This document shows, in pieces, positions 1 to 64,000 of a stretch of 64,000 nt of DNA. Below the pieces are notes generated by a model. The model made no database searches, had not been told where the DNA came from, and saw only the letters and a program-made list of their open reading frames with translations. Origin of the DNA: Ectobius pallidus (taxonomy: Eukaryota; Arthropoda; Insecta; Blattodea; Ectobiidae); NCBI GenBank assembly GCA_964059195.1, contig CAXKWD010000007.1, positions 157,031,269 to 157,095,268 of the forward strand. Direction: 5' to 3'. A program made the position numbers and the translations under genes. Every line of letters starts with the position of its first letter. Position 1 is the first letter of the stretch.

Positions 1-2970
1 GGATCAAAAACTGACGAGCTACAACAAATTGCTGGACTTATCCTTTACTATATGAATTCTGAATACTACTGCTAGGTGAGCTAGCTAGTACTTGAACAGA
101 AAATCTGACAAGATTAATTAAACTTAAACATGCCTGAATTACTACCTCAACATTTTGTCTACTTCTGTCAACATAACCTCTATTCACATACACAATGGAA
201 CGCAGTCGTCAGGTGGCTATAGTACAATCTGCTCAAGTCGCTCCCACTGAAAAGAAATGAACCCTTCCCTTTGGCTACACCAACCCATAGTACATCCAAC
301 TTGGATGCACCAGCAAACGCCACACTTAGCCAGTACTTTGCAGAGGCCAGCAACAGCATACCCCGCTGAGCTCCTCACCTTTTCCCCAGGCTAACGGGAC
401 TGAAAACCCCACCAAGAAAAGAGAACACATATCTATCATAGAGACAACAATGACAAACAATTACTGAGCCTAAATACACGACGCTGCACTCAAATTCCAT
501 TACAATTCATAAATTCAGGACTTACTGCATCTATTTCATTATTTATTTTGACACTATCGGGACAGTAAACTAATCTGACCAATCGAGTGTGAAAAACCCA
601 GCAGCGGCCGAACAACTAGGCTTCACAGGCGAACAGCAGATAATTAATTGACACTATTCTTGAAGTTAAAATTCAACAATTACAAGGTCTAGGCCTTCAA
701 ATTACTATCTAACCTACACATTTATTCAGTCACATAAATCTCACAACTAACCTACCTACTGTACAAAAATTTACATCCTAACCTCACTACTATAGGCTAC
801 TATATACAACTATATACAATAAACACAGCACAGCTTCTAGACAACCAGCAGAAGCCTTGACCCACCAGCAACAAACAACATGTCCCCTCCTGGTACCTGG
901 AGAGTCCATGAAGCTCTCAGCTTTAAACGGCCAGGTCAAAACTCCCACCAAATAGTCACTACTCCATGATCCTGAACCTACTAACTTTCACACCTGCACA
1001 AACACATCTTTTGTTAAAGGTCAAAATCGGGAATTTTAAACACTGGTAACTTCTTGGTTATTACTAACCTCACTTCTACGAGCTTTTTCACTATCATCTG
1101 TTTAAACTAGTCACGGTTAGCAAAATAAATAAGATGGAGAAAACTCACCAAGCCAGAGTTGATCCACTGAAGCATTTACAACAATTCAAAGAACTTCTTT
1201 TATGAGTCACCCACTATCAGCTGATGTAACAAAAGGCCAAAGAATCACTGCTCTAAACATCACAACACAGGTGTCAGAATAGCTTGCAATCAGGACCCCA
1301 ACCAGCACACCCGGTCCACACATGAAATCACAGTAACAACCAGTTATACCCAATTCATAAAATTTCTTTCAGTACATAGTTTCTCTTTTTTATAAACACC
1401 ATACAAATTAAAATGAATGCTGGAAAAAATGATTAAATTATATTATTAGCTTGAAATAAACGGTGTTTAAATACTTCTAGTGCCTGAAATACAATCTTTC
1501 ATTAGTACAAAAATTAGGCCTAGGCTATCAGTAGATTGAACCAAGAACCTTTACAAACTGAAATATTAATTAAGTTAATAGACAAAAGGAAAATGTGGAC
1601 GATAACCGCGCTCTGCATTAACAATTGTAACCCCGCCCTAAGGGATGAAAAGTGTGAAAGGAAGCTTGGGAAACCAACCCCAGGGAAGTTAGCCTATTCC
1701 CTGAAAACGGGCCCACCCATAGGTCTAGTAGGACATCCCGGAGGGGGCACAAAACAGAATGTAAAAGTTCCTGATTCAAAAACAATAACAGATAATATAT
1801 AATTTGGAACCAGATGTTTACAAGACAAAGGAAAATACAAAATTAGTATAGCCTGAAATAAAAAAAACAATAATAATTCACAGCACTGTTTACATTCACT
1901 CTTTGGGCAAATAATTTGATAGAGTGTTTTCATCATTACTTGAGACATTCAAACTGACAAATTGGAATTTACTGTAATGTAATTATACTGAATACATCGA
2001 AATTACAAAATGAAAAAGTAACCAAACATAATAATCAATTTCACTATTACCAACACTCGGAAGAAGGGGACTTTACAATAGAACAAGGGAGGGGTTTACT
2101 CAGTAAAATGACACAAGGGACGATGGCTTTATTTCATAAAGGCCAGAATCGAAACAAACCGGGGAAAATATAATGTAGGCCTACAAAACAATCTTTAACA
2201 AGGGGCAAAATTTAGTAAAAGGCGGGAAACATTACTGCCATCGGGATGCCTTTTAAAATCCCGATGGACAGGAGAAACGGGCATGGCACAAAGACTAAAT
2301 ACAGACCAAAATAATAGAAGAAACACGAAACTAAAAATGACTTACCAGACCGCGACACATCAGGTTTGCAAGCAGGCACGGGGAGAAGGGAAAGAAACAG
2401 ACGCCATCATTATAGCTTGATGACGCCGACTACTTAGGCTATTACTAAGAAACCCCCCCAGCAACTCAAATAAACAGAAAACCCTTTAAATATTACTAGC
2501 CAAGCAAAAGGAGACAGAACACATGGTTTCTACGAAGATTCTACCAAAAATACACTACCAAATCAATCAGAGAAACTACCAGCTACCAAGCGCAGAAAGA
2601 GGGGAAGGGAATTCTACCGTTACATAATTACTAAGTTAAAACACAAGAAAGTTAAACTAAAAACCTGTTGCAAACCTGAAGGATACACTGGGACTACATT
2701 ATCCCACGAACGAAAGCACAAATACCGAAGAAATTACTTATAAACAAACTAACGAAATGCAACTACGAAAACAACGTCAATGCCGAAATAAACCATGCCC
2801 ATAACTGAAGCCAGAAAAGACAAACACTCGCTAAGAGGCTGTACCAAAGGATGAGGGGAGAGGCCAGCGGACCTACGCCCGCGAAAGCATATACAAAAGA
2901 GAAGGTCGCGCCATCCAGCGACCAAACTTAAAAACATGTACCATTACGCGCGAAAAATAAATACAAATCA
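1..2970. other. no gene recognised
   Basis: I see no recognisable gene, RNA or mobile element here. Open frames are short (88 residues or fewer), lack family motifs and overlap on both strands. The only local structure noted is a small perfect hairpin at 2238-2267 and two copies of the octamer TAGGCCTA (1515 and 2176). Confidence 0.6.
2238..2267. repeat. short perfect inverted repeat (hairpin)
   Basis: CCATCGGGAT at 2238-2247 is exactly complementary to ATCCCGATGG at 2258-2267, with a 10-base loop. There is no T-run or gene beside it, so no terminator or regulatory role is claimed. Confidence 0.6.
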
Positions 2971-2975
2971 AAATA

Positions 2976-3548
2976 ATGGTACAACAGTTAGGATTTATTT
3001 TTCGTAATTCCAAAAATATTAAAGACGAACGTGTCTTACAATTACTTTATAATAGTTTTGTACGCAGTAAGTTAGAATATGCATCAGTTATATGGTCACC
3101 ATTGTATAAAACTCATATTAATGACATAGAAAAAATTCAGAAGAGTTTTCTCCGATATATGTATTTTAAAAAATATGATAGATCTGCTTTAATTGATAGA
3201 ATTTCTTATAATACTTTATTAAATGAATTTAAATTTGTTACTTTAATTGGTAGAAGGTTGGTAGCGCAACAGTTATTCTTATATAAAATTATCAATGGTA
3301 AAATTGATAGTAATGAACTTTTAAAACGTATTAAATTTAATGTAGTGCAATTAAATTTAAGGAATAGGGAATTATTATATATTCCTGTCATTAAATCGAA
3401 AATATTAGAATGTTCATCTATCATCCAAATGTGCAAACGATATAATTCTCTATCACTTCAAAATGCTCTTCTGGATTTTGACTTGTCATTGAATCAGTAC
3501 ATAGGACTTCTTCATAAACTGTTATATGTTCCATATGATTTGGCTTAA
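2976..3548 (+). pseudogene. C-terminal end of a non-LTR retrotransposon reverse transcriptase (ORF2), 5'-truncated
   Basis: A 190-residue open frame that matches the thumb and C-terminal part of non-LTR retrotransposon ORF2 proteins. The diagnostic part lies at residues 20-65, reading LLYNSFVRSKLEYASVIWSP, then YKTHINDIEKIQKSFLRY: the family pattern of a short Y.S.VRS.LEY...W.P segment followed by an IE.IQ..F helix. The catalytic palm (YADD) is missing, so the copy is 5'-truncated, as is usual for LINE insertion by target-primed reverse transcription. The ATG at 2976 is probably just an internal methionine near the truncation point. The frame is uninterrupted to its stop, which suggests a fairly young copy. 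It ends 170 bases before an A-rich tail, which supports its orientation. Jockey- or CR1-like clades are plausible; the exact clade is not decided. No function is expected. Confidence 0.85.
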
Positions 3549-3771: not shown

Positions 3772-3784
3772 CATTGATTAAAAA

Positions 3785-4125: not shown

Positions 4126-4127
4126 GA

Positions 4128-4800: not shown

Positions 4801-5264
4801 AATACCGTGTTTTATCCCTTGTAGGCCTACTCTTTCGCCTGCTCATGAATAAGTATCATTTGTCATTCACATCTAGTGGCAAAGTATTATGACTCATGAT
4901 GGCAACATGTAGTATTCAGGTGGGGTCATAGCGAGGGTGGTTTGTGGGTTGTGATTAGAATTGTGGCGCTGAATTTGACCCAAAGCCTGGATTGTGAGTT
5001 GCTTGAGCTGCGCCCGAGCGTGAAGCCTGGCGGGGCTTCAGGGGTGCTTAATTCCGCGGCGCGACTCAAAACGCCCTGAAAATAAACATAAAAAGGTATG
5101 AAATATTTTAGCACTCTTCTTTATAAAACGAGAATCATCTAATATTTTTTACCTTATTGATTCGTGCATGTGACAATAAAGATCTCGCCAAAAATATAAG
5201 AACCTCAACTGAGAAAAGTTTGCTAACTAAATCTCTACTACCAAAATATCTTGTATCACATTTT

Positions 5265-6186
5265 TTTGCTCGACTTAATTAATTAGTGGTACTTACGAAT
5301 GTGTTTGCCGTGGATCGTAAGTTAACATTCCCGCACGCAATCTTGTTGCTATGGAAACAAAACAAATTTCCATGCGGTAAGAATTTACTTACGCCACACA
5401 TCATAATACAAGCCTTTATGGACAAGGCCCCCCAGGACAAATATTCGGTTCCCATAACAACAAACACATGCAAATCACTCTCTGAAAAAAACATCTATCT
5501 TCAATAATGTAACTTATATAGAATATTTTCAGGTAGGCTAATATCTCAATTAATATAACTTAATTAAATTGATATAAATAATCATCGTGCAAAAAATAGG
5601 ATGCAATACTCGTGCCGTAAGCGCACAACGGATCTCGGAAAATTTAAAAAACTCGGCGCGAGCGCCTCGTTTTTTCAAACTCTTTCCTTGATCCGTATGC
5701 ATCGCTTACGGCACTTGTATCGCAATATAGTATTTTGCACGACTTAACTAATTAGTGGTACTTACGAATATTGTTGCCGTGGATCGTAAGTTGACATTCC
5801 TGCACGCAATCTTGTTGCTATGTGCGGTAAGAGTTTCCGTGCGGTAAGAATTTACTTACGGCACATCATAGTACAAGCCTTCATGGACAAGGCCCCCCAG
5901 GACAAATTTCGGTTCCCATAACAACAAACATATGCCAATCACTTTCTGAAATAAACATCTATCTTCAATAATGTATATAGAATATTTTCAGGTAGGCTAA
6001 TATCTCAATTAATATAATTAAATTGATATAAATAATCATCGTGCAAAAATTAGCATGCAATACTCGTGCCGTAAGCGCATAACGGATCTCGGAAAATTGA
6101 AAAACTCGGCGCGAGCGTCTCGTTTTTTCAAACTCTTTCCTCGATCCGTATGCATCGCTTACGGCACTTGTATCGCAATATACTAT
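5265..6186 (+). repeat. hairpin repeat P, two tandem copies (period about 469)
   Basis: Two head-to-tail copies. CGACTTAA followed by TTAGTGGTACTTACGAAT begins at 5271 and again at 5740. Each copy has a non-palindromic left part of about 300 bases and a roughly 160-base palindromic right part. In copy 1 TGCCGTAAGCG at 5613 pairs with CGCTTACGGCA ending at 5713, and outside it TCGTGCAAAA at 5585 pairs with TTTTGCACGA ending at 5742. A third partial copy lies at 7343-7603, and an inverted copy with its inner hairpin lost lies at 37217-37693. Confidence 0.85.
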
Positions 6187-12207: not shown

Positions 12208-13106
12208 TAGGGACAGGATTTTTAGGTTTTTACCTATTTTTTCCTTGCTTCCAAAACAAAAAGCGCTCATACACTTTTTCGAATCATGTCCATAGGATTC
12301 ACCCACATTAATTCTGTGTCACCTAAAAATACTTAAATGGGGTATAAAAACCTGAATGTAGGCCTACCTAAACGGGATATAAAACCTAAAATATCTAATT
12401 TAGGCTGTTTTTTTTGTTTGTCAGTTGAGAAATAGATATTTTGCGGAGAGACAATAACTTTGTCGGGTTGAAATTAATACCACCAGCGTTTCGTTCAACC
12501 CGTTGTTGTCTAGGATGGACAGTATCAAGAGACGGAGTGTAAGAGTACCGGCGTATTCCTTTTAAAATATTCGTATGAACAACCATTGTTGCCGTGTATG
12601 AACAAGGGTATAGATTTATGTGTTTTAAAGCGCTTGTTTGCCTTTAGTACTCCCCTATCATTCATACTGAGTGGTCACACTGTGAGTTTTAAGAAGACGT
12701 GTTAATTATGCCGAAACAAATGAAACCGAGTTTATTACGGCAGTGGATTGGCGATGACCTAAATTTCATTCTTTTCCCCTTCTTCTTCTTCTTCTTCTTC
12801 TTCTTCTTTTTTCTTTCTTCTTCTTTTTTCTTTCTTCTTCTTCTGATGTTATTTTATGACGTTGCACCCCGCGGGTTTCTACGTCTGCTCTGTCCTAAAG
12901 CAAGTTTACAGAAATTTAAGTAAATTTTGTTGAGTTAAACTTTACAAGTATTATGTTTTGAATCCCATGTAGCACATTCAAATTCGTTAAACCAATTATT
13001 CTACCCGAAAATGATATTTTGGACAAAAAAAACCTAAAAAAAAACTATTTCACCTAATGGAAAATCCTAAAACAGTGTTTTTAAAAACCTAAAAATCCGG
13101 TCCCTA
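12208..13106 (+). mobile_element. hAT element family 1, copy B, with exact 8-bp target duplication
   Basis: This copy is flanked by CTCATCAC at 12200-12207 and 13107-13114. The ends TAGGGACAGG and CCGGTCCCTA match copy A in opposite orientation. It keeps the transposase start (ATG at 12708, MPKQMKPSLLRQWIG) but loses it after about 20 codons in a CTT microsatellite at 12778-12842. Relative to copy A it has an exact GGCCTA insertion at 12361-12366. Confidence 0.9.
12778..12842 (+). repeat. CTT microsatellite
   Basis: A (CTT)n run with short interruptions, replacing most of the interior that copy A of the same hAT family retains. Confidence 0.9.
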
Positions 13107-13415: not shown

Positions 13416-13512
13416 ATGTAGGCCTACAGGTAGTGAACATTGCTTCCATAAAACGCTATGCTATTTACTTATCCCTAGATTATCTATACCACCAAATACA
13501 TACTTAGGCCTA

Positions 13513-14993: not shown

Positions 14994-15164
14994 TAATTAT
15001 CATTATTATAGTCTATAAGAATTAAAGTTTGTATTGCTGGAACTTTTGGGGGTGAGTAACATTGCAATTAAAGAAACCTTAATATAGCCGGTGCTATTCG
15101 TTTGCAAGAGAATTAAAAAGAGATTAGTAAAAGAGCTATGCGTTCAAAGTAGTTTCTTCATAGC
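14994..15164 (+). repeat. left copy of a 171-bp direct repeat flanking a hAT MITE
   Basis: This segment, from TAATTATCATTATTATAGTC to CTTCATAGC, recurs as 15657-15832 directly on the other side of the element at 15165-15658. The copies differ by a few substitutions and by an exact GGCCTA insertion in the right copy. Confidence 0.9.
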
Positions 15165-15658: not shown

Positions 15659-15832
15659 ATTATCATTATTATAGTCTATAAGAATTAAAGTTTGTATTGC
15701 TGGAACTTTGGTTGGTGAGTAACATTGCAATTAAAGAAACCTTAATAGGCCTATAGCCGGTGCTATTCGATTGCAAGAGAATTAAAAAGAGATTAGTAAA
15801 GAGCTATGCGTTCAAAGAAGTTCCTTCATAGC
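15657..15832 (+). repeat. right copy of the 171-bp direct repeat
   Basis: It matches 14994-15164 from TAATTAT through CATAGC. It carries TAGGCCTATAGCC where the left copy has TATAGCC. Confidence 0.9.
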
Positions 15833-17529: not shown

Positions 17530-18385
17530 GCTCCAGCGCTAAAGCTATAAAATATATAGGCTATAAAATAGGCCTACTAGCAATTACGTAAAAATCCTTA
17601 AATATTTTATTCGTGGACTCAATAATAAAGGATATTTACTGGCTACTTGTATCCATACTGAAAGATTGACCCGCTGGGGAAGAGAATGAATTAAACTTTT
17701 TCCTAATCTTGTAAATCTGCACTACATTTATTTAGATATTTGTTGAATTATTTATTTTATATTTTGATCCTTTTTGCTAGTAGCTTTTATGTCTAATTAC
17801 CTTATCAAATGCCTTATTAGTTTAATACCTTGTTACGCCCTTTTCATATTTTAATATAATTTATCAACATGAAAACGTATTACAGTTAAAATGGGCGGTG
17901 AATTGCCGAGGCTTTATGAGCATGCTATCCGGTTATAGATAGGGCAAGACGATGGTACTTTTTAATGAAAAATTCATGGAAAAATCCTTTGAAATATTGT
18001 GTGTTTTATGTAGAATGCATTGCGAAGCAATTTGTGCGAATGTGTGTCCTTTTTTTATGTTGAGACGCCGATTTTAATGATCCTGCGCCTCTTTTTGTTG
18101 TGTTGCTCATGAAAGTTTCCCTGCTCTGCAATTCACAAACCATCCCCTAGTTTATTAGGTCTATATTATCTCTGTTGTCACATAATTTGTATACAGATCT
18201 ACACTTTTGGCCGTGTTTCACCAATCATTACCTACATAACTTACCCCATATAACCCGGAGAAAATTATTATTTATATTAATGTATTGCTATGATGACAAT
18301 ATTAATACAAATTAATAATCTACAATAGTCTACACAATGTAATAATAATATTAGTACTGTACATATTAATATTAATATATAAAAA

Positions 18386-19095
18386 TTCCCGTAGTTGTTT
18401 TCTACCCTTATTATAAGGTGTAATTGCTATACAAATATAGGATACATACTTTAACAAATTTTCATCAAATTATACTAATATAACCTCTAGAATGAGAAAT
18501 ATTTTCTAGGCAACAAAATATTAGATCAAATCACCCTTTAGTTGTTGTATAGGCCTACCTATATTATATAATTTCTATTCAAATCTAGATACTTTGAGAG
18601 ATTTTTACAAGATTTTAAAGACAAATGCTGTAGAATCAGAAGAACATTTTAAGTAACTTGAATAACAGAACAGTTCACATCTTAGCTGTTTTCTACCCAT
18701 ACGTTGTGATGTCTGTACAAATCTACATTCTTCGAACAGTTTTCTACCCTATTACATAATCTATATATAAGTATAAATACTTCGAAAGATTTTTAGCAGA
18801 TTTTTAAATAGATTCTGCAGAATCAAATGACAATTCAAGGCAGCAATAATAACAGAAAAGGATCATACCATAGCTCTTCTCTACCCCTATTTCCAATCCC
18901 TATACAAATTTAAATTCTTTGAAGGATTATACAAAACCAGATCCTATAGAATCAGGAGAAAATTCTATTCAACAATACTATCCTTCCCTTAGCTGTTTTA
19001 TACCGCTAATATATAATCTCTATACCCGTCTACATTCTTTGGTTAGTTTTTATGAAATCTTACACACAGATCCTTCAGAAACATATGAATTATGA
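18386..19095. repeat. degenerate minisatellite, period about 140
   Basis: The block TTAGCTGTTTTCTACCC, then an AT-rich stretch, TATACAAATCTACATTCTT and GAATCAGA, recurs with much divergence near 18391, 18540, 18683, 18871 and 19000, plus a short extra piece near 18738. It directly adjoins repeat B on the minus strand and may be part of its internal structure. Confidence 0.6.
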
Positions 19096-22336: not shown

Positions 22337-22874
22337 AGATTATGGTTCTCCCTTCATTTTCATAACTTCTTTTATTTGTATATTCTTTAATTTTTCTCTT
22401 CTTTATTTCCTTGCTGACCTCCTTAAAAAATCCATTTCTGTAGCTAATATTTTGTTTTCATTTCTGTGAGAAATTTGCCAAACTCCTGCACCATATGTGA
22501 GGATGCTTTGAATTACTGTTTTATATATTTGCAAATTCCAGTTTTTTGTTATAACTTAGCCTATGTTTATCCCACCAAATTGAATATAGAACATTTATTG
22601 CTTTCTTTGTTTCGGAAATTCTGTGTTCAATTTCTGTGTTGCTTTTCCCATGTTGATCTATTTTTGTCCCTAGATAGGCCTATATACATTCTGTGCATGG
22701 TTCTATTGTTTCTCCATTGTCTAATTTCAATGGTTCTGTCTTTTCGCCAGGAATTAAGTATTTGGTTTTCTTTGTTTTTATTGTCAATCCCCAACTTTCA
22801 TATTCTTCATTTAATTTTCTTACCATATGGTCATGGTCCTGTGCAATTAGTACCTGGTCATCTGCATAGTTTAA
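22337..22874 (-). pseudogene. reverse transcriptase palm-to-thumb fragment of a non-LTR retrotransposon
   Basis: Minus-strand translation starts YADDQVLIAQDHDHMVRKLN, the catalytic YADD motif followed by the usual helix. It continues with EEYESWGLTIKTKKTKYLIP, then YLGTKID (the conserved YLG motif), then EIEHRISETKKAINVLY and ILTYGAGVW, the start of the thumb. The order and spacing match RTE- or Jockey-like ORF2 proteins. A stop lies at 22677-22679, just before YLGT, and comes from an in-frame GGCCTA insertion; without it the frame reads straight through. The fragment continues at 21372 beyond the nested repeat. It has no endonuclease or N-terminal palm and cannot be active. Confidence 0.85.
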
Positions 22875-24639: not shown

Positions 24640-25690
24640 TAAAAAAACCCCTTCAGGCAAGCCTACAGGCTGAGGTAGATTTCGAAGTGCTTTTGGCTTA
24701 ATTTACTGTCGCTCTGTAGCACTCTTCTTCTTTAGCCTTGGCATGACAAACCCGCAATAATAACTGCAAAAAAGAGGAAAGAACACTTTTCAAGCATTCA
24801 AATCTCGCCTTATATCAGAACTATCAAGAAAGTAGTTATTGATTTGTAGAGTACTCATCAAGAGCTTTTCAGCAATACCCCACAAGACGTAGTTTCAAAA
24901 ATTTCGAATTTCCATCCCCCACCCCACTCGTACCCCCAAAACCCCCGAATCGTTGGTGTCACTGTGAACTCCATAGGGAGTAGGCCTACTCTAATATATT
25001 CAAACAAAGTTTCCCTCTATACTTCATAGGGGCCGAGATATAATTGTTTTAAAATTTCAACCCCCTCCCCCGACCACCCCCTTGGGCCAATTTTGCTCAT
25101 TAACGAACTTGTCCGAACTATTGGGCCTAGAAATAACATAATAAAATTTGGTTCAAATATCTTCAAAATTACGGCCGCTAGCGTGTAAAGATATATATAA
25201 TAAATATCACAATTTTTTTTCGAACAGGCGGTGGTTTCGTACTTAGGGAGGCATGAAACGTAAAGATATGAAAGAATTTTTCGAAATTCATGACGTGGTA
25301 TCGATTGCAATAGGCAGATTTTTCTTCGAAATCTACCTAAAAACTGCTGCTTTAATTACAATTAGCGTAGGCCTAAATCTATTATTTATTCCACAATTTT
25401 CTGAGCATTGTCCTGTAGAATATTCCACGCTCATTAGTCAGAAAACGTGGATGGTTTAGTCGATCTGGAGTAGAATCTGAATTACAGGACTAACAATCTT
25501 TCAGGCCATCATTAAGCAGATGAAATATTGATGAAAATTATCGCTCCGTTCAACTCGCTTAATCCGGTTGCTTAACCTTTTCTCTGCTATTAGCGTATAA
25601 ATGTATCACATCAAAATATCGTTTGAAGCCAAGATATAAGATTAATGCAGTCATTCTTTCTGTAAAGTAGTGAGGATTTATATTCATGTT
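24640..25690. other. no gene recognised
   Basis: There are C-rich patches near 24916-24948 and 25060-25083, but no family motif. Short frames on both strands overlap one another. Confidence 0.45.
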
Positions 25691-25739: not shown

Positions 25740-27150
25740 TTGATTTCAAACTTAGAGTCCACTGATGGTTTCACTTGATATTTGCTTATAAGAAAATAAA
25801 AAAACAAAATTACAAGAAAATTTCAATATTGGATGTCAGTTTCAATGATAACTACCCCTTAACTGTAATAGTTAAATTAATTCCGAAAATAGTATTCAAT
25901 TATAATAATATGATGGATATCGCACAATGTGCATTATGTAGTACAAAAGTTTGTCATAGAGTTTTCCCTTTTTTTGCACCATTGCAGGTGGTATCGGTCA
26001 CATATTACTCCGCACAGTTTGCACCTGCAGTCAACGTTTGGGTCGTGGAACTTCTCCGTCTGGCATATTCGATGATGAAATCCGTGTACGGCGTATCTTG
26101 TGACCACATGTCGTAGGTCATATCTGGCTTGAGTCCACTCCCTGTGGGTCATCGCGTCTGTTGCGTAGAAAGTTGGCCATATCTCATTTCTTTTCATGTA
26201 GAGTTCCTGCAGAAGTTCCGTATAGGCTCTGGTGTTCGGTAGTAATAGGTCAATTCGTAGTTCCTCAATGAAAAATTGTTCTCTTGCTAGCACATAGGTG
26301 AGGCGAGATGGCGTATACTTGGACAGGCATAACGCTTTTTTCAGAAATGTGGCTTTCACCTTTTCTATGTCTTCTAGGTTTTTCTTCTTTAAGTGAGTCC
26401 AAATGATCTCTAGCCCGTAAGTTATAATTGGGCCAATTTTCAGGCGGAACAGGGTGATGGCTGTGGTCAAGGACAGGTTGTCTTAGATTCTTTATGCTAT
26501 TTGTTGCCGTTTTGGCTGCGGTGACACGCTCGCTGATGTGTAGGTCATAGGCATCTCCACGAGTTTGAAGCGTGATCCCTAGGTACTTGAAATTTGGTAC
26601 GTTCTGTAGCGGAGTGTTCTTATACAGTATCTTGTCATTTCCTGAGAGCCTTCCTCCCCTTCTGAACGTCATCTTGACTGTCTTTTTTGCATTTATCGTC
26701 AACTCGTTTTTTTCGGCCCATGTATTGAGTTTGTCGAAGGCTGTTTGAAGGTTTCCCAAGTTTTGCGAGGTAATGACCATGTCATCAGCATAGGCGAATA
26801 TTTTAACGTTTTCTGTGGCTATTTCTTCAGGCACTTCTGCGGTTGCTATTATAAACATCAGGGGACTTAGGGGATCACCCTGGAGTACTCCGTTTGTTTG
26901 GTCAAGCGGGTCTGTCTTAGATACCCTGTTGTCTATCTCGACTTGGTTTTTGGACAGAATGTTTTGTATCAACCTTGTTACTTTATTTCTTCCAGTGATT
27001 CCTTCAATCTTCTCTAATATAAGCTGTCTGTTCAGGGAGTCGAAGGCCAATTCAATTATAGAAGTAGTCTATATAGAGTATGCCAGATTGCAAGGCTACA
27101 GAACAATTCATTGCTGAGAAAAAAAATAATGAAACTTCACCCATTTTCCA
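25740..27150. mobile_element. foldback repeat H, copy 1, interrupted by a retrotransposon
   Basis: The segments 25845-25904 and 27061-27150 join to reconstitute part of the foldback element seen at 43190-43805. Landmarks are TGATAACTACC and GAAAATAG on the left, then GAAGTAGTCT, CAGATTGCAAG and ATTCATTGCTGAG on the right. The outer left limit is uncertain. Confidence 0.65.
25905..27049 (-). pseudogene. 5'-truncated, frameshifted non-LTR retrotransposon reverse transcriptase
   Basis: The insertion is flanked by an 11-bp duplication ATTCAATTATA at 25894-25904 and 27050-27060. On the minus strand it starts AFDSLNRQLILEKI (RT motif A). It continues NGVLQGDPLSPLMF (motif B), FAYADDMVI (catalytic YADD), NAKKTVKMTF and FKYLGITLQTRGD. 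A frameshift near 26480 moves the rest to another frame: LFRLKIGPIITYGLEIIW for the thumb, and near the end CKLCGVICDRYHLQWC, a CX2CX7HX3C zinc-knuckle-like motif. The N-terminal endonuclease and palm start are missing. There is no long poly(A) at its 3' end. An R1/I-like or related clade is possible but not settled. Confidence 0.88.
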
Positions 27151-29425: not shown

Positions 29426-29652
29426 ATGGCTTGTGTACATTTCAAATTATATTGAATCTTAGCGATCATGGTATTAGATGAAATAGAGGAGATGAATCAA
29501 TGATTAGGCCTACAGTCCTATAATCTCTTCGAGTATAAAAGCTATGTGAGAAAGTATATGCGTCATATTTTGCACAAATTATTTAGGCTACTTGGTATTG
29601 CCACTGTAACTTAAATTGTTTTCAATGCTATAGTCATGTCGTAACTCATCAA

Positions 29653-32600
29653 TAGGGTTCGGATGTTTATAGGCCTATAATGTCATATTTTTATCCTGAC
29701 CTCCATTCTCGCCACAAACACAAATTAAACATAAATTGCACATTTGTTATCCTAATCGGACCGTTTTTATTTTGCATAAAAGTCATGTTTTGGTCATTTT
29801 CATGGTTTTGGTCATATTTCGGTCATATTTTGTAATATAACGTCATATTTCAGTTACAAATTCGGTAAAAGATCACAATTATGCAGTATGTGCCCTAAAT
29901 TGTCGACTTGAAATTGTTTTCCGAAAAAGAGTCACGGATATTTTGATTTTGCTGTAACTGAAATATGAAGGGACAATAACAAGTAGACCTAATAGCACAA
30001 TTACCTCTTCCTCCTTTGTTGTTAACAACTTCCAATAGACATGTTTTAAAAATATTTTCAGTTTACATTTGCAGTGGTGTCTGGAAACATTAACGGATTA
30101 GAAGTTATTTACAAGTAAAACTGTAAGTTGCCTGTAAAATTGTTAAAAAGTCATTATCTGATTGAATTAATTTGATGTAATAATTTAGTGTCATTAAACG
30201 TTTTAAATTGGAACATTTATTCTTGAAAATACGTTCCTTTATGAGGTCATATTTAGTATACAGTAGAGCCTCGGTAATTCGAGCCCCGGTATTTCTAGGT
30301 TCCGTGTAATTCGAGCTGGTCTTAAGAAAATTAAAATTGTCCATAAAACTAGAGTAAAATCCCGTTTTTATACGGTGTCCGCAAGTAAGTTTTACGCACT
30401 TCCGAATGTGTTACATTTTGAGCTTTCTTTCAATTTTTCCATGTACAAAAATGCAAGTAAAACTGTCCCACTTTGGGTTTTTGTTCATAATAAACAGAAA
30501 TAACCTTGGCTTCAGACTGCTAATGATAGCTTACCCGTTCCACTCCATTAAGGGTCAGACAAATGACTTAATCCTTAAAGGATGCCGATGTAGCAAATTG
30601 GAAATGTTTGACAATATATACATACAGGCGTAACACAGGTATGTAGGCCTACTATATTGTTTATTTATTTATTATTTAAACCATTATTGTGCTAATTAAA
30701 CATTTATTTGCGATTTACCCATTGATTTAGTTAAATTTCCGTATAATCCGAGTTTTTTGTAATTCGAGGTAGCCTCAGCCCAAGGCTAGTATATGGAAGG
30801 TTGTCTCGTTCGACGCGCATGCGTGTTGAGCACGAGGAATGTGACGTGGCCCGTAGCCCTGCACAGGATTTAAACAGCTACACACAATGGAAATGATGGG
30901 AATAAAACTTAATTTTAACTACAATAATACATGTATCTGTAAAGATATACTACATATGATCTTACAGGGGTTATGGCTTAATAGAGAGACCACTTCTGAG
31001 TGCTCAGACCTCAAATGAATAAGCTGTAACAAAATATAATGAGACGTTTGAAACAAATTAAAATATTTAAGCGGCTGGTTTCTGTAAAACATACTGTGGA
31101 TCACAAAATAAAGAAAACACACAGAAACCCTACATTTCTCTGGCAAGGGATCTCTCTTTAAATTTATTGGGGTACTTTTACAACTCTGTTTGGTTATGAC
31201 TAAGAAAATGGGAAGTATACTACGATTTTTTTTGTCTCGCAGAGGCAAGTTTACCCTTCTGTAAATAAATCTATATTCATTCACATTTCCAATAGAAACT
31301 TAAAGGGCCTGTCCATTTTATTTATAGACACCAGCAGACAGGCAGAAAATCTTTTATTGAGGCACTTTATCAACAACAAAAATAGGGAGTGATTGTGTGT
31401 TTTATTGTGAAATAATAGTGCTTCGAGTATTAAAATACTTTCATCCCATGCAGAGGAAAGGAATGCTCTTTTCCAGTAAAATCCTTGAACATTTTATTTA
31501 TGGACTCCCCTAATAAAACATCTTTCAGAAACCGAATAACTACAAGTATATACCCATAAACCAGCTGGGCCTCGCTCACTGGGGTGGGGGGGAAATATTC
31601 AACAATGGATCTGTTGTTAACAGCAAAAAAATGGAAACCTAGAAGCCAATTTCCTACTGAAGGTGAGTTTATGACGCTTTTATTATTATTTTATTATAAG
31701 CGCGTCTTAAAATCCATTTTTACTTGAAAAATATTACTAAGTTACTCAGTATTGAGTCTTGGATTGTTCGACCATTTAAATGCTGTCGGTCGGTATACAT
31801 TTAAAGATATACCTGTTAACATTTATGACGTGATCACTTTGAATCATTTGTAAATGTTTATTTCAAAATGTTCTACAAACAGTACACAGACTGGTTTGTA
31901 ATATATTAATTGTTATTCCGTGCGCATATTTTATTTGGCTACATCTTCCAGTTTTATAATATAATAATATACATCTTCCAGTTTATAATATAATAGTAAT
32001 TCCGTGCGCACATTTTATTTGGCTAAATCTTCCAGTTTTTTGTCTCTGGAAAGCATTATTCCAAGCTGTTAACTTTTAAAACTTCTATTCTTCTTTGGTT
32101 TTAATAATTGTTTAGTATCTACGATTACACGCTCTGTAATTAAATTGTGTCAAATACATTGCAATCAGAAGTGTATTGGTTCATCTTATAGATGTTTAAT
32201 TTAACTTAATTTCATGTAAAATAAATAAATATAGAAAATATACAATCTAATTAAGAAATTTATTTTTCTAAGTCAAGACGAATATCGCAAAATATGCAAA
32301 AGTCTATTCTTTTCAAGTCTCCTTCCATAAATTAGACTAATTTACCTGGAATAATTAATCATAAAATTAAAAACCTTTCAAGCATAATCTGAGCTATATC
32401 TGCTAGACTACTTTTTTTTCTCAGTCAGACAAACTTTTTCCTAACTTTGTAAAGCTGCACTATTCTTATTTGTACCTGTATTAAATATTTATTTTAATTT
32501 GTGTTAAATCCTCTTTATATGCAGGGTCGTATGCATTCTATCTTCACCTCGGAAACATGTATTAGGGGCCTATTGTTGGTAAAACGATGGTGTTTTCGTG

Positions 32601-32866: not shown

Positions 32867-33434
32867 GTCTGTCGTTTACTGGAGTTAACGTCCTGATATA
32901 AGGGCTAGTGGTTCGAGTTTTTCTTTGGGCAGAGGGTCGAGTGAGCCTTGTTGTTCATTGTGAAACATCCCATTATTCTGTCAGGGATTTGAACACCACC
33001 CATTCAATTGAGTCCAACCCTTTGCGTCTCCTTTTGGCCAATAAATTTGGTGAACACGTAATGTGAACCTCAGTGTTACTGTCAGTTGGCTGGCCACGCC
33101 CCCCGGAAATGATGGGTTTGCTAATGTAATTAAGAAAAGGCTATTGTTGCTCGATTGTGTGCAAAGCGATATTATATAAGTTTGAAAATAGTCTCCAATT
33201 TCATGACCAGCAGGGGTCCTACAGATGAACCATAAAATGTGCAACACGCTCCACTGTCAGCCGGGGTTTGTCTGCTTGTAAAATAAAATTGGTTAATTTT
33301 TCGGGTTGACTATTAATTTGAAAATCTAACCACAATACGAAAGTAGGCCTAGGTCCTCTTTTTCGACAAACTGTCTGGAGTAAGCCTTCAAAATAATCGT
33401 TGATTGCACAAATAAAATGGAAACATTACCTTTA
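32867..33434. other. no gene recognised
   Basis: I see no family motif or repeat boundary. The 88-residue minus-strand frame is not recognisable. Confidence 0.45.
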
Positions 33435-35621: not shown

Positions 35622-36120
35622 GTGCCCGTGGCTTCGCCCACGATAATTCATTTAAAAATTAAAAATTAAGAGTATAATAATTATTAAAGCATTATATTTA
35701 TTAACACTTGCACGCGAATCATTCATAAACTAAGCCATTAATAATATTAATGAAACAGCTAAAATTCCTGCTTTAGAGTACATTCCACGATTTGAAAGCG
35801 CCCCCTGGGAAAACTATATCAGAATCGATTATACAGTTCCAAAGAAACCTGTGAACACATAATACCTATTGTTTCTCAACTGTTTATTGACATGAATATG
35901 ATGTGAATTTTATTTGATCAATTCAGTGTAATTTTCAGAAATTAGGCTATATAATGTTTCAAGGGAAGGAATGGTTTGTTTGGATTATTATCAGCGATAT
36001 TTCAAGAGTTAAACCATCAATATTTTACTGCTGGTGCCCCCGGTGCTTCGCCCTCCATGATTCATTGACTCCAGGATTTTTAAGAAATTTACACTGTATT
36101 TATACTGTATTAGTAAAAAT
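35622..36120 (+). repeat. dispersed repeat A, second locus with the two-start arrangement
   Basis: GTGCCCGTGGCTTCGCCCAC at 35622 and CTGGTGCCCCCGGTGCTTCG at 36031 mirror the pair at 6764 and 7233. A GGCTA insertion at 35945-35949 is absent from the first locus. Confidence 0.7.
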
Positions 36121-36750
36121 AAAATTTGAATATTTGTTCATTGTGTTCATTTCACTTAGGCCTTATATAATAGCGGTTTACCTAATTTTGTAGTCGTAAT
36201 GAAAGTTTACACTGCGAGAGACGAACATCGCCGAGTATACCCGATGTCTCACGAAGCGGGCGAGCGAGCAAGCACGCTATTTAGGGCCGTTGAATTGTAT
36301 AAGAGTAGATTTTATTGCTGAGCACCCTGAATATGTAAATTACAATCTTAAACATTTTAAGAAGAAAATAAAAAAAATGTTATATAATATTAATAGCACA
36401 ACTTAAAATTTTGTTTGGTCTGATCAATGTTTCGATACAATTTATTCTATTTTTTGTTGTTGAAAAATCCTATAAAACCACTGGTTAATGTTGCAGAATT
36501 ATTTTTGTATACTTTGTACTCATTCATACATTTATAATTTTTCGTTTGTAGTATACTGTGCATAGATAGGCCTATATAATTAGATTTGTATTATTCTAAT
36601 TAAAGCACGAGCTTTGCTCATATAGGGGCATGTTTGGTTTTATTTGTTTTTACTTGTACTAAATGTGTAATAATAAAAATCTTAAATAATAATAAAAAAT
36701 ATATGTATCTGAAAAAAAGTCCAAAAGTTAGTCTAAATGGTAGGTCTAAT

Positions 36751-37693: not shown

Positions 37694-38224
37694 TATGTTA
37701 CAACACGCATTCTAATGTGTCTGCAAGATTATAAAAATCAAATTGAGTATCTAACTGTCCCCTGCCCCTGGTATACCTTAAGTACGTGGTACGAGAGTAC
37801 GTAGCGTACAAGAAGCGATTGTGACCGCATTAGAGAACTGCTTCAAGTGAATAGCTCTCCTCGAACAATGTAGGCAACGATTCTTTATCGACATGAATAT
37901 TGTTCTATTGTTACCGAGTTGACAAGCAGAGACAAAGCGGCAGGAAACACAACTATTAGCGACAAAAGAACATCACAATGGCGCATTGTTGTGCGCGCGC
38001 GCAAGTTAAGAGCGAGTCACCGCTTTCATACGTAGCTCATCTGCTTGGTTGTTAGCGTCACTCATTTCTTTCTTCATTTAAAAATCTCCAATTACTTTTT
38101 CTCCAGTATGACATATTCAGTAGACCTTCTTTACATTTTCTGCGCTAAGCTTAGGCCTACATATTAGCAATATAACATAGCCTGTCATTTTTAAGTGCGT
38201 TTTTCATTTTCATTAATTTATTAA

Positions 38225-39370
38225 AATTATTTTCAGAGAGTATTCTTCATTTCTCGTTATATGAGTAAATATTTAGATTTAAACAAAATTTTCTTTCTCG
38301 ATAAAAAGTAATCATTCTAGAATGCGAATTTCCTTCTCATAGGCTAATATTAGCAAATTCATTCTGAAATGCAATTTTCTTTCTCGTTATATTAGTAAAT
38401 ATTTATTCTGAGACGCGATCTTCCTTCTCATTATATTAGTAAATATTCATTCTGAAATGCAATTTTCTTTCTCATTATGTTAGTAAATATTTATTCTGAG
38501 ATGCGATCTTCTTTCTCATTATACTGTATTAGTAAATATTCATTCTGACATTCAGTTTTCTTTCTCATTGTGTTAGTAAATATTCATTCTGCAATGCAAA
38601 TTTATTTCATTATATTAGTATATATTCATTCTGAAATGCAATTTCTTTCTCATTGTGTTAGTAAATATTCATTCTGGAATGTAATTTTCTTTCTCATTAT
38701 ATTAGTAAATATTCATTCTGAAATTCAATTTTATTTCTTATTGTGTTAGTAAATATTCATTCTGAAATGTAATTTTCTTTCTCCTTATGTTAGTAAATAT
38801 TTATTCTGAGATGCGATCTTCTTTCTCATTATACTGTAATAGTAAATATTCATTCTGACATTCAGTTTTCTTTCTCATTGCGTTAGTAAATATTCATTCT
38901 GCAATCCAAATTTCTTTCATTATATTAGTATATATTCATTCTGAAATGCAATTTCTTTCTCATTGTGTTAGTAAATATTCATTCTGAAATGCAATTTTCT
39001 TTCTCATTATGTTAGTAAATATTTATTCTGAAAGATTAAGTAATTATTCTAAAATTCTATTTTCTTTCTCATTCTGTTATAAATATTCATTCAGAAATGC
39101 AAATTTAACATTAAGTTATGTTATTAAATATGCATTCTGGAATGCAATTGTCTTTCTCATTATGTTAATAAATATTTATTCTGAGATGCGATCTTGTTTC
39201 TCATTGTGTTAGTAAATATTCATTCTCAAATGCAAATTTCTTTCTCATTGTGTTAGTAAATATTCATTCTGAAATGTATTTTTCTTTCTCATAGTGTTAG
39301 TAAATATTCATTCTGAAATTCAATTTTCTTTCTCTTTATGTAATTCTGAAATGCAGTTTTTTTTTCTCAT
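38225..39370 (+). repeat. minisatellite, unit about 43 bp, with higher-order structure
   Basis: About 25 copies of a unit reading roughly TTCTTTCTCATTATGTTAGT followed by AAATATTCATTCTGAAATGC. A 310-bp block of seven units starting at 38491 is repeated at 38801 with the same variants, such as CATTATACTGTA, showing a higher-order repeat. Confidence 0.92.
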
Positions 39371-39592
39371 GGTGATAGGAAATATTTCATCTTGAATGCA
39401 CTTGTCTTCAGGCTATTTAACTTATGCATATCAATACATACTTTTTGTACCAACTTTTATAATAGGCCTATCAGATTAATTTACAGGTTATAAACTGAGG
39501 TCATTTGCACATATTGTACCGCAAGAATAACGTTCTATAGAAACTTTTGTGCTAGTAAAATCCATTATGCAATCCGTTATCATATCTGTTAA

Positions 39593-39660: not shown

Positions 39661-40016
39661 TTTAAAATCATCTCTTAAGATATTACCTTCAGCGGGGAAG
39701 AAAGATCTATGTCCCAAGGAAAATACTATACACTAACTTCTAGACTCTAAATGGCAAGCTTGAGGACTTTATACCTATGCAAAGATGAATTATTAAAAAA
39801 ATAAAAAATAAATAACTAATAAAAAAAAAATTTAAAAATTAAAAACTTGTAAAATTAAATACGTAAAAGATGTTTAATAGTAAACACGATAGAATTGTTA
39901 AAAACTCGGAAGGCTCGGCCTACAGCATACTGGGAATTGAAAATAAAATATTCTGGTAATTGCAATGAATTATTTGGGTGTATAGGCCTAAGTATGAATT
40001 TTATTGTATGTAGACT

Positions 40017-42221: not shown

Positions 42222-42400
42222 CTTACTTACTTAGGCCTACTCAGTGGCAATAGAAAATTCCTATGCAAGCTAAAGGAATATAATCTATTTTATGGAACCC
42301 GGAGGTTCATTGCCGCGCTTACCTGTGCCCGCTATTCAACCCTGTTCTGTGCTAACTCCATCCAACCATCCTTACAAATCCCTTTAATCTATTCTAATAT
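42222..42400 (-). mobile_element. RTE-like retrotransposon 3' end, truncated
   Basis: An (ACTT)n tail on the left, then GGCAATAGAAAATTCC and GGAACCCGGAGGTTCATTGC in the orientation of a minus-strand insertion. It has a GGCCTA insertion between tail and body that the copy at 62243 lacks. Confidence 0.75.
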
Positions 42401-46246: not shown

Positions 46247-46776
46247 AATGCACAATTTAAACATTAATAAAACGCAAATACCCTAATAAAGCATAATTTA
46301 TAAAAATGAAATGTATAATTTACTGGTGTATGAAGCATAATCTGGTCGCTTTGATGACAAGTAAAATGAAGATGATGAGATTGTGTTGACAGTGGTGGAT
46401 TCTGTCAATGAATCCTTCACTGCATTGAGGTTTGCAGTTTCCCACAGTCAGAGAGATAGGGATCGTTAACATACTCCTCCTGTCCCACAGAATTGAAGAG
46501 CTCTTGAAAAGTGTGTCACTGTTACCCTCCTCGAGTCCCCTATACAACCCTCGAGCCGGCCAATTTGTCCTCACAACATGTCCTCTCTTGTAAATATTAA
46601 AGACCGTGAAAATAATATCACTGCTAGGCCTACCTGACTATAGGAACCAGGGGTTCATAAAAGCAGGAAATCTTGATAAGAAATTGCACCTGTAGGCAAA
46701 CTATATTGTGGAGTGCCTCAAGGCAGCCGATACAGTTTCATTCGAAATCAGAACATTTTTGTTCAACAGTAATAAG

Positions 46777-48082: not shown

Positions 48083-48520
48083 ACATGCCGGAACAGCAGT
48101 TGAGTCAGTTGGAGAATTTAATCAATAAATGACAAATGAGGGTTAAAATAGAGTATCGCTTATTCGGACCCCACTCGTCCGGACATCCGGTTAATTCGGA
48201 CGGGATTTAAAAAATAAAATATTAATTTAAATCGTAGGTTAAAACTTTTCTACCTGTACAGTAGGCCTAGTATTAAAACTAAAATTAAGTTGTAGGAAAA
48301 GTTATATTAATAAAAAAATACAGCGATTTTTATAGATTTACCCATGTAAAACTTGTATTATAGTTCTGTACGTGCATTGTAAGGCAAATCCTGTTTAATC
48401 TGGGCTTGAGGTGATCCAGACAAGATCTGGTTCCATCTATACCTGGAATGTACTGTATTTAAGGGAGGCGTTCAAGAGAAACTTGAATCTAATGAATGTG
48501 GCAATGATAATCAATTCTAA

Positions 48521-51954: not shown

Positions 51955-52131
51955 CAAGACCAAGACCAAGACTAAGGCGGTCTTGGTCTTGGTCTTGGTC
52001 TCGCACACTCAGTCTTGGTCTTGGTCTCGCATCGGTAACCCTGGTCTTGGTCTTGGTCTTGGTCTTGCATACTCGGTCTTGGTCTTGGTCTCGGTCTTGC
52101 ATACTCGGTCTTGGTCTTGTTGCAAGAGTCT
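51955..52131 (+). repeat. GGTCTT hexamer array, left end of the nested hAT
   Basis: About 15 copies of GGTCTT, many separated by CTCGCA or TGCATACTC. The start is in the AAGACC orientation, so the array itself forms an inverted repeat. Confidence 0.9.
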
Positions 52132-55140: not shown

Positions 55141-56022
55141 CAGTCTATCTTATGCCGATATCAGACAAAGGTTGAGCTAATAAAGTATTCAAAAAGAAAA
55201 ATGTTATTGTTACTGAGACATGTAATAGGCTATACTACAAAGTAATTATTAAAATAATGTCTTAAGAATCCACCGTCTTAAAAAATAGCTTTCCTAGCTT
55301 TTTACTTTGCAAAAGTATCAATAATACTATTATAATTCAGTTGTCTAGCAAAGATATCTCCAAAAACGTCGATGCTATAAGAGGTAATGAATTTCCTAGG
55401 AATCCCGGGGATAATTTTGCAGAGATATGTACCAATTTTATATGTATTCTATGTATCAAAATTAATCATTTGAAAATTATTATTTTAAATGCCGAACGTT
55501 AGTGAGGCCTACTGTTGAGTCCAAAAGGATTTCTGCTTCTACTTTTAAAAAAAATAATTTTTCTCCAAGAATAATCCGTTTCTGATTACCTGATTAATTC
55601 CGTGTCACCGTTATGCGACAGGACAATGAAGATAAAAAATAAACACATAAAACATAGCTTAAGCTGTTTGTTGACTTATAAAACATTTAATTTTAGAGTA
55701 AATTAGAAAGTAAAAAATAAAACCTGGTCGGCCGGGCCGGGGCCCCAAGTCTTTAGTCTCGGCTGCTCCCCCTCTCGTCCTTGCCAGCCTAGCCGAAACA
55801 GTTCCAACAAAAATGCAAGTGAAACCGGTCTTTTGCAACCGTTTCATAAAACTGTTATGTGCGCGTAACAGTTTCGGCTACAACCTTTATCTAGAAACAG
55901 CTTATTTTCCCACCTCTACCGGTAACGGTAACGGCACCTTTCAGTAGTGGTTGCTGGCTTGCTGCGTACACAATCGAGCATTTAAAACATTTTCAATATG
56001 GCAAGACTGCAAGAGTCTTGCA

Positions 56023-56190
56023 GTTCGGTCTTGGTCTTGCCCGAGTCTTGCAGACTTGGTCTCGGTCTTGGTCTTGGTCTTGCACACTCGGTCTTGGTCT
56101 TGGTCTTGCTAACGCAGATGCGGTCTTGGTCTTGGTCTTGGTCTTGCATTTTCTGCAAGACCAAGACCAAGACTGCAAGACCAAGACTGG
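56023..56190 (+). repeat. GGTCTT hexamer array, right end of the nested hAT
   Basis: About a dozen GGTCTT copies, then AAGACC copies before the terminus. It is the mirror of the array at 51955. Confidence 0.9.
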
Positions 56191-58523: not shown

Positions 58524-58529
58524 AAATAA

Positions 58530-59790: not shown

Positions 59791-59923
59791 AGTGTTACAT
59801 GTTTTAATACTAGCATAATAAACATATCTTATTGTTGCTATAACTCTTATTAAAACGCATTTTATGTAATACATGTGATACACTTATATAGCAAAGATGA
59901 AATCGTATTACCTTATTTTCAAA

Positions 59924-60318
59924 ATTCTACACCTTTTCAACCTCAATTTCGGAAAAAGTAATTTCAATTTCGGAAAAAGTAATTCTAATTTCGGAAAAAG
60001 TAATTTCAATTTCGGAAAAGGTAATTTCAAATTCGGAAAAAGTAACTTCAATTTCGGAAATACGAGGGCTATGAAGAGGGTATAGTAAAGTTGGTACCAC
60101 GCTAGGAAAAATGACTCAATCGGAGTGAGATTATGTAGAGAAGTAGCTGGAAGGTGTACCTAAATGTTCCAAATAAAACAGTTTGGATTTTCACTGTGGT
60201 TTTCATTTTATGCCCCATCGAATGTTTAAAAAAATAGCCCTCGTATTTCCGAAATTGAAGTTACTTTTTCCGAAATTGAAATTACTTTTTCCGAAATTGA
60301 GGTTGAAATGGTGTATAT
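59924..60318. mobile_element. palindromic element with minisatellite arms and a TACGAGGGCTAT core
   Basis: The left arm has about six units of AATTTCGGAAAAAGTAATTTC type (period 18). The right arm has about three units in the opposite orientation. Outside the units CTACACCTTTTCAACC pairs with GGTTGAAATGGTGTA. The 185-bp core at 60061-60245 starts TACGAGGGCTAT and ends ATAGCCCTCGTA. A mariner-like MITE core is plausible. No coding frame. Confidence 0.85.
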
Positions 60319-60933: not shown

Positions 60934-60941
60934 CTGGGGGT

Positions 60942-62242: not shown

Positions 62243-62530
62243 ACTTACTTACTTACTTACTCAATGGCAATAGACGATTCCTAAGCAAGCTAAAGGAATA
62301 TTATCTATTTGTTGGAACCCGGAGGTTCATTGCTGCGTTTACCCGAGCCGACCATTCAACCTTACTCTGTGCTAACTCCAACCAATCTTCGCAAATCCTA
62401 CTTCCCTTAAATATATCCTAATATTGTCCTCCCATCAACGTCTAGGTCTTCCAAGCGGTCTTTTCCCTTTGGGTCTCCCAGTCAAATGTCTGAGATATGT
62501 CTTTCCTCCCCCATGCGTTTTAAAGTCAAG
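62243..62530 (-). mobile_element. RTE-like retrotransposon 3' end, minus copy
   Basis: An (ACTT)n tail at 62243-62262 is followed by GGCAATAGACGATTCC and GGAACCCGGAGGTTCATTGC. The inverse of the ORF2 C-terminal signature follows (GGTCTTCCAAGCGGTC and TCCCCCATGCG), equivalent to RPLGRP and RMGE. It is the longest of the three minus-strand 3' ends. Confidence 0.8.
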
Positions 62531-62534
62531 CACC

Positions 62535-64000
62535 TGAAACGCTATTCCTCAAATTTTTATTTACTCAGTTCAATAAAAACCCATTTACTAATACGTTCAA
62601 GTTTTGCCTACTTCAAAATTAGCAAATTAAAATAGTTAGGTAGGCCTACTTTGCCTTTTTCCCCCTGCGAGCGCCAAAAAAAAAAAATGATATTCCTAGG
62701 TGTCCGCATGATAGGCCTTTTGCGGATGAACTGACAATACAACTAAGCATTGCCTAGTATAAAACTGAACTGAATTACTTAGCTGAATGTCCGGTTTTCC
62801 GGGGCACCTGTCGAAAGAGGGCGGAGTGAGACAGGGTTTAGTAACTTTTACATTAAAATTGGGTAGATTTTGATTTGTAGCCTTCGTTCAAGGCTACCTA
62901 TTTTAGTTAAAGAACTTTAAAAATCACATTAAGCTAATATTGTTCTTAGAGAAAACCTCAAAAAGAATAATACAGTACATTAATCGAACAGTAGTGTATA
63001 GAGCTGGAATAGCGGATTGGGTACAGGAAATAAGACACATAGGGGGCTCTTGAGAAAACAAACAGATTATTACACTCTCCACTGCTCCACAATGGCGCTG
63101 CAGTCGTTACCCACGCTCTAGTCTATTATATTTTATTTTTATTCCTGCTCTTTAGCATTATATCCTTATTCTTCCTATTATATACGTCCCATTCTATGGC
63201 TACTCCCCCATAGTTGAAAATCTCACCCCTCAAAAAAGCTCACCAAACTACAGAAGTTGATGTCAATGGGGAAAGTGGAGGGGGAGCTGCAAAGGCCGGG
63301 GGAGGGGGGGCAGACACTAGCGCGCCTGTCAAATTAACACACTCCACGAATTACAGGTGAAGAGGGGGGGGGGGTGATAGTTGGGACGGGAAGGGGTTGG
63401 AATATAATAGATTTGAGGAGACGTTGAAACATAGGCAAGTACGGTAGCATTGAGTCTGAAATGCCTAGGGGCCATTGTTTGATTTCTATTATAATTACGT
63501 TTTAATAGACAATGGAAAGAGCGGGATCTGCTGGTATAATACTGTACTATTGTCAGAGCCTCCATTCGTGATATCATAATAATAAAAAACCCTACCTGCT
63601 GGTTTCCAAATGGGCTCGAATAAAGGATGCTGCTATATGTATGTACGCATTCTCTTTTTTATTATTATATGCTACTCACTCTCCACTGAGAAATATATAC
63701 TCTTCTGTTCGATGGAAAGCAAATGTAAATTCCTATCTAAGTGCTTCTTCATATCTGTAATGTGCTCTTGTATTCCTTTGTACTTTCTGTTTGTTCAGAT
63801 TGAGAATTTCTTTCCTCTGAAGAATTATTGATTTAACGGTTTCTTGACACAGAATCATTTTTTATTAAAGAACCTTGTTAAAAAATTACCCAGATAGGCC
63901 TATCTAAGGCAAGCATATTTTTCATTTTTCGAGTGTGTTGTAAGATATGGTTTAATGTTCGAAGCATGTGGCTCTGGGTCAAAATTTATTCTGCTAATAC
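62535..64000. other. no gene recognised
   Basis: There are G-rich patches near 63283-63310 and 63362-63375. No recognisable gene or repeat boundary. Confidence 0.45.

Follow-up and report, generated by a model that had tools for sequence, protein, structure and literature searches.

Why does one octamer, TAGGCCTA, in which GGCC stands between two TA dinucleotides, recur 26 times in 64,000 nucleotides of the Ectobius pallidus genome? The window, meaning here the whole 64,000-nucleotide stretch that was analyzed, covers bases 157,031,269-157,095,268 of contig C7 (178 Mb) in an assembly of 2.12 Gb. We consider that the octamers are probably germline excision scars of a TA-specific Tc1/mariner- or pogo-like transposon with GGC/GGCC tips, a source element that may be rare or lost and that, like the chemistry by which its ends would have been joined, is inferred.

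Enrichment of the octamer

All 26 octamer positions reported in a first-pass annotation of the window were exact on direct count, and its estimate that chance would give about one copy agrees with the 0.66 copies expected under an order-2 Markov model, which allows for composition (Poisson p ~3e-32). Scored as count/(expected + 1), TAGGCCTA ranked first among all 8-mers of the window; by the plain observed/expected ratio, the poly-G word GGGGGGGG (15 vs 0.22) ranked above it. For replication, the same contig was sampled at even intervals in 20 regions of 10 kb; these contained 70 copies, with none in 5 of the 20 regions, and the octamer again ranked first in the pooled 264 kb (96 vs 2.55 expected). 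The enrichment extends far beyond the window, with 520,230 copies (which are copies, not events) in the whole 2.12-Gb genome vs 14,707 for the reversed-letter control, or approximately 1 per 4 kb. The heptamer TAGGCTA, a 3-nt relative, was found 318,704 and 321,427 times on the two strands, compared with ~71,400 each for its control. Base-level reading covered ~0.34 Mb of the 2.1 Gb of this one assembly. No account of TAGGCCTA as a genomic word or transposon scar was found among the papers listed, judged by titles and abstract openings. The sites in the window are the following (strand not assigned for any of them; sites marked "direct count" carry no further annotation).

1515..1522, TAGGCCTA, GGCTA directly after (TA-GGCC-TA-GGC-TA)
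2176..2183, TAGGCCTA, GTAC-type flanks
4822..4829, TAGGCCTA, GTAC-type flanks
12359..12366, TAGGCCTA, TA only in paralog at 10662
13419..13426, TAGGCCTA, GTAC-type flanks
13505..13512, TAGGCCTA, direct count
15746..15753, TAGGCCTA, TA only in 93% paralog at 15083
17569..17576, TAGGCCTA, 5 bases downstream of TAGGCTA at 17557
18550..18557, TAGGCCTA, shorter paralogs in weak 62-64% alignments only, not used
22675..22682, TAGGCCTA, within reverse-transcriptase-like frame; adds in-frame stop and one residue
23736..23743, TAGGCCTA, direct count
24981..24988, TAGGCCTA, GTAC-type flanks; TA only in 86% paralog L011:5010
25368..25375, TAGGCCTA, direct count
29505..29512, TAGGCCTA, direct count
29670..29677, TAGGCCTA, repeat labelled hAT MITE (miniature inverted-repeat transposable element) by the first-pass annotation; six bases fewer in paralogs 47348 and 47391
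30644..30651, TAGGCCTA, within CAG-tip element 30259-32777 (pogo-like by tips); GTAC-type flanks
33344..33351, TAGGCCTA, direct count
36567..36574, TAGGCCTA, direct count
38152..38159, TAGGCCTA, direct count
39463..39470, TAGGCCTA, direct count
39983..39990, TAGGCCTA, direct count
42232..42239, TAGGCCTA, adjoins TTAC microsatellite; paralog alignments not clean
46625..46632, TAGGCCTA, direct count
48262..48269, TAGGCCTA, direct count
62641..62648, TAGGCCTA, GTAC-type flanks; TAGG before it
63895..63902, TAGGCCTA, direct count
5534..5540, TAGGCTA, TA only in paralog 7412
5993..5999, TAGGCTA, second copy of the 5534 site by tandem duplication
35943..35949, TAGGCTA, TA only in paralogs 7144 and 22169
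29984..29991, TAGACCTA (one mismatch from the octamer), paralog near 47056 six bases shorter

Insertion at TA

In the loci that compare cleanly with a paralog, the octamer is a six-base insertion at TA. The polarity of the difference was tested by taking every TA-N4-TA word with a spanning paralog and asking whether the paralog was shorter by exactly six bases. Among 171 such loci in the window, seven had a six-base-shorter paralog, including five TAGGCCTA sites, one TAGACCTA site and one TA run; all 5 of the spanned octamer loci were in this group (4/4 once the weakly aligned 18550 is dropped). Under stricter alignments in the 264 kb, a six-base-shorter paralog was found at 7/16 octamer loci and 7/309 other TA-N4-TA loci (Fisher 5e-7), a tabulation across repeats that agrees with the insertion proposed in the first-pass annotation.

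The pairs that the first-pass annotation had described as differing by exactly GGCCTA stood in part. On inspection of the alignments, the six-base difference was clean at 15746 (the repeat has two copies, 15746 and 15083, among the matches listed), at 12359 vs 10662, though the base preceding the TA differs there too, and at 24981. The copy at 29670 is a net six bases longer than 47348 and 47391, with gaps that align untidily, and 42232 was not clean: its excess over the 41.8-kb paralog was six bases in one alignment but 3 in a second, and its excess over 62254 was 2, because a TTAC microsatellite abuts it. The shorter GGCTA insertions described alongside these pairs were confirmed, as 35943 is five bases longer than 7144 and 22169, and 5534 and 5993 are five bases longer than 7412. 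Across the 264 kb, a five-base-shorter paralog was found at 6/10 spanned heptamer loci and 13/398 others, where 5534 and 5993 represent one event (tandem duplication) and 10620 is actually an 8-base gap.

Insertion is also indicated by a satellite of ~50-bp monomers at the start of contig C1 (L001-L008), where one GGCCTA insertion per 3-kb locus was found with the same flanks, and where 239 exact empty cores (AACTACTATGG) compare with 8 filled ones (AACTAGGCCTACTATGG). The eight fetched octamer copies of this satellite were identical across 88 compared bases and therefore represent one insertion event that was multiplied there. Since tandem and satellite duplications have carried the octamer with them and the duplicates share it, octamers appear to be inherited.

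The third line of evidence is the octamer at 22675, which, as had been claimed, breaks a reverse-transcriptase-like frame by placing TAG GCC (a stop and one residue) in frame. The frame has an RVT_1 match with an E value of 3.5e-4, under its curated cut-off. A single relative was found, with 61% identity, and it is shorter by exactly two residues at this site, which lies within the span of the relative's own RVT_1 match (residues 10-84). Shorter paralogs, the satellite and this relative thus all bear out the claim of an insertion at TA. Another RVT_1 frame, at 26265-27068, had no match in searches of viral contigs or genome contigs, and 19 kb of the window compared with phage sequences gave no match.

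Target preference

The insertions show a preference for GTAC targets. At the first position outside the duplicated TA, C was present in 94/192 octamer half-sites vs 33 expected, and at the third position T was present in 86/192 vs 64 expected; beyond these base preferences the two sides of the octamer were not associated, and T...A flanks were found at 0/96 sites. Genome-wide, GTAGGCCTAC was found 68,549 times vs 453 for its reverse; judged by titles, no relevant literature was found for this word. Both the insertion at TA with duplication of the TA and the symmetric preference around it are as expected of Tc1/mariner-pogo footprints. Passer, of the pogo group (DD35D), inserts at the TA in the center of AAGTACTT (PMC9976928), and ZB prefers ATATATAT, as does Sleeping Beauty (PMC7913693). 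At 12359 and 24981 an A-to-G difference precedes the TA, which prompted a test for palindromic copying of flanks; this was dropped, as symmetry did not exceed that expected from the base frequencies (38 vs 33.3 at +/-1).

Related words and age

Among TA-N3-TA words that are not A/T-only, the three most enriched in the 264 kb were TAGCCTA/TAGGCTA (88 vs 22), TACAGTA/TACTGTA (110 vs 55) and TAACTTA/TAAGTTA (114 vs 65), and the same three classes rank highest in the window alone; the TACAGTA counts include the ends of resident elements, so that the C[A/T]G figure does not represent scars alone. These words share the form X-N-X', which two identical 3-nt overhangs would yield on pairing with a central mismatch and which is also that of the published footprints of Sleeping Beauty, C(A/T)G, and Hsmar1, T(T/A)A (PMC3878927). 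Five-base variants (GGGCC/GGCCC) in the form of TAGGGCCTA/TAGGCCCTA were found 7 times vs 1.1 expected, and the two-base forms TAGGTA/TACCTA were not enriched (117 vs 113). Between the TAs there are GGCC and its 3-nt and 5-nt relatives, in keeping with the 2-4 bases of Tc1/mariner-pogo footprints.

Forms of the octamer with one mismatch numbered 90 vs 66.8 expected in the 264 kb. The largest excess among them was that of TAGACCTA/TAGGTCTA (19 of the 90 vs 5.4 expected), which may reflect decay or a variant overhang. Taken with the excess of ~93 octamers, these counts suggest a mean divergence of ~3%, and the octamers as a group look young.

Other short TA-bounded words were also observed. Two further TA-N4-TA palindromes, TACCGGTA (12 vs 1.7) and TATCGATA (12 vs 3.3), were frequent in the 264 kb. 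A second scar-like class, TA-A(C/G)T-TA, is present at 5510, 5556 and 19677, where the paralogs have TA only, and at 57954, TACGTA is a 2-nt scar-like insertion, all 5 of 5 spanning alignments being shorter by CG and one TA.

Proposed mechanism and comparison with known systems

If the octamers are excision scars, a transposon would have inserted at TA and duplicated it, and the transposase would later have made its outer-strand cut a short way into the element (three bases for GGC tips), so that the flanks kept 3' overhangs of GGC or GGCC. Two GGC overhangs joined through their self-complementary GC ends and filled in would yield TA-GGCC-TA (TAGGCCTA), and pairing of the same overhangs along their whole length, with a G.G mismatch in the middle, would yield TAGGCTA or TAGCCTA, in the way that Sleeping Beauty yields C(A/T)G. 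The CAG and ACT classes would have no octamer partner because their last two bases are not self-complementary. Alternatively, a 4-base stagger with a GGCC overhang could give the octamer directly; both overhang models fit.

Footprints of the Tc1/mariner superfamily are given as 2-4 bp (PMC7913693) and those of Passer as 0-4 bp (PMC9976928), while Sleeping Beauty leaves C(A/T)GTA and Hsmar1 T(T/A)A (PMC3878927). The octamer resembles the TA-C(A/T)G-TA of Sleeping Beauty/Tc1 in being a short addition between two TAs that could derive from end-joined tip bases (PMC3878927, PMC8151067), and TAG(G/C)CTA shares with Sleeping Beauty the symmetric form with central ambiguity; unlike in Sleeping Beauty, the main product here is four bases, GGCC, without ambiguity, and is present about once per 4 kb. 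Compared by target and footprint, it also resembles Passer, with its TA target in AAGTACTT, as GTAC is preferred here with T at the third base (PMC9976928). In a 4-base GGCC model, complementary sticky ends would be joined without processing, as with piggyBac (PMC3878927, PMC8151067), but piggyBac targets TTAA and leaves no footprint there, and the octamer sites, with a six-base scar, show neither feature.

Evidence for and against excision scars

The excision scar of a TA-targeting transposon with GG...CC ends had been suggested in the first-pass annotation, and this reading is supported in part. In its favor are the target preference, the symmetric 3-nt words, a CAG-tip element with an empty paralog and the presence of Tc1/mariner and pogo transposases. 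The CAG-tip element (30259-32777) has a TA target, the tips CAGTAGAGCC (CAGTAGAGCCTCGG), by which it is pogo-like, and an empty-site paralog at 47857; CAGT-tip inverted repeats are present in a 288-kb sample, and CAGT tips adjoin TA at 6/8 fetched DDE_1 loci. Tc1/mariner and pogo DDE transposases are abundant in the genome, as expected for footprints of this superfamily, with 6,151 DDE_3 candidates (150 scored) and 1,354 DDE_1 (pogo) candidates (150 scored).

A number of observations weigh against this origin. C at +1 was found in 94/192 half-sites of the octamer vs 46/176 of the heptamer (p 9e-6), a difference in targets that speaks against one common source, and the scarcity of one-mismatch forms is odd for a long-lived process. 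In the 264 kb, 9/16 spanned octamer loci had no six-base-shorter paralog; two of the 7 positives, L013:2615 (in a tandem array) and L011:6009, were not clean, and at another, L024:164, the three six-base-shorter sisters read CA in place of TA. Several other octamer loci sit in the L013 tandem array or beside larger gaps, and the paralogs of L011:480, L011:5319 and L022:5378 are of equal length and differ by one or two substitutions, which suggests that some octamers may be old or may have arisen by substitution.

The search for a source element adds to these points. In the 288 kb, inverted repeats of 60-3,500 bp were listed if the first four tip bases were identical and 14/16 first bases matched, rows with matching outside flanks being excluded, and none of the TA-flanked repeats listed had GGC/GGCC tips. 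Zero elements in 288 kb allows at most ~22,000 genome-wide if they are evenly spread, and octamer copies would then outnumber elements by at least ~20:1; an excess of ~93 octamers over chance, set against zero elements in almost the same sample, is extreme for cut-and-paste transposition. In the 264 kb, where TAGG-tip pairing was judged against a cross-locus control, the strong GGC-tip pairs were in the L013 array and an L020 pair; the latter (L020:8241-9393) was rejected, being the inside of a larger inverted repeat and not an element. Among recurring TAGGC extensions, the two that stood out most came from the C1 satellite, and large insertions between paralogs yielded a single CAG-tip element inserted at TA but no element with GGC tips. 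Tips were also examined at 18 transposase loci (10 DDE_3 and 8 DDE_1, from the 150 scored per family), and a GGC/GGCC-tip element was accepted at 0/18, other tips or none being found; TAGGC-tip pairing there reached at most 8/15 (L038) and 9/15 (L043), both involving octamers. The predicted element with GG...CC ends at TA was thus found neither in the 288 kb nor at these loci.

Other repeats were observed in the window. A short inverted-repeat element at 59928-60316 has tips (CACC.TTTCAACCTCAATTTCGG) in common with the 365-aa DDE_3 transposase family of L033. A 44-bp satellite, organized in a higher-order unit of ~310 bp, lies at 38357-39341, and GGTCTT minisatellite blocks are present at 51979-52119 and 56015-56148.

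Alternative explanations

Since the source element was not found, a direct micro-insertion retains some weight and our confidence in excision scars is kept moderate. In such a one-step process, an enzyme, which might be a domesticated transposase specific for TA or some other nuclease, would cut at TA, and the ends would be joined with GGCC-TA added, with no long element involved. The ~93 octamers above chance in 264 kb with no source element in 288 kb, the very uniform product with few decayed copies and the strong symmetric target preference would all be accommodated, but for the CAG-type words a corresponding class of elements is present here, so that the route through a transposon is the simpler one. 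To our knowledge, no enzyme adds a fixed GGCC, which also counts against the micro-insertion, and we regard it as rather unlikely. Scars of the PIF/Harbinger type are a good deal less probable still. The terminal inverted repeat consensus GG(G/C)CC and the TAA/TTA target described in rice (PMC4423477) recall the GG...CC form seen here; the octamer sites, however, do not show a three-base TAA/TTA target duplication, as TA alone is duplicated, the outside base is C in 94/192 half-sites and T...A flanks are absent from all 96 sites, and a 2-base target is consistent with sister copies such as 10662 and with the satellite monomer.

Two further explanations appear highly improbable. Were the octamer ancestral, the shorter copies would be 6-base deletions between the two TAs, which are direct repeats, so that such deletions are possible in principle; the 239 empty and 8 filled satellite cores, the finding of two to three shorter paralogs for each of 29670, L024:164 and the heptamer at 35943, the breaking at 22675 of a frame that is open in a relative, and the rarity of a 6-base difference at other TA-N4-TA words (7/309) all argue for the opposite polarity. 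The octamer is palindromic and its one-mismatch forms are few, as might be expected of a functional or selected motif or of an effect of composition, for instance a junction of telomere repeats (TTAGG/CCTAA). An explanation of this kind, which we credit as little as deletion, is opposed by the interruption of a reverse-transcriptase-like frame, several repeats and a satellite, by the lack of T...A flanks (0/96 sites) and by an order-2 model that already allows for composition.

Significance

Transposon excision scars are usually studied singly. A tentative and broader possibility, which we hold to be well short of probable, is that a genome-wide process wrote the fixed unit GGCCTA at TA sites, hundreds of thousands of times over, and that its author was not left behind. 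This could have been mass, near-complete excision of one transposon population (a clean-out resembling that of internal eliminated sequences, with self-complementary sticky ends) or the direct insertion of GGCC by a domesticated TA-cutting enzyme, a kind of micro-insertion not described before; if no element is ever found, the process itself would be new. If the octamers are scars, they would rank among the main kinds of small insertion in a genome of this large size, present in a reading frame, repeats and a satellite alike, and they would record how a possibly vanished transposon once chose its targets and by what chemistry its ends were handled, each one a countable and datable event.

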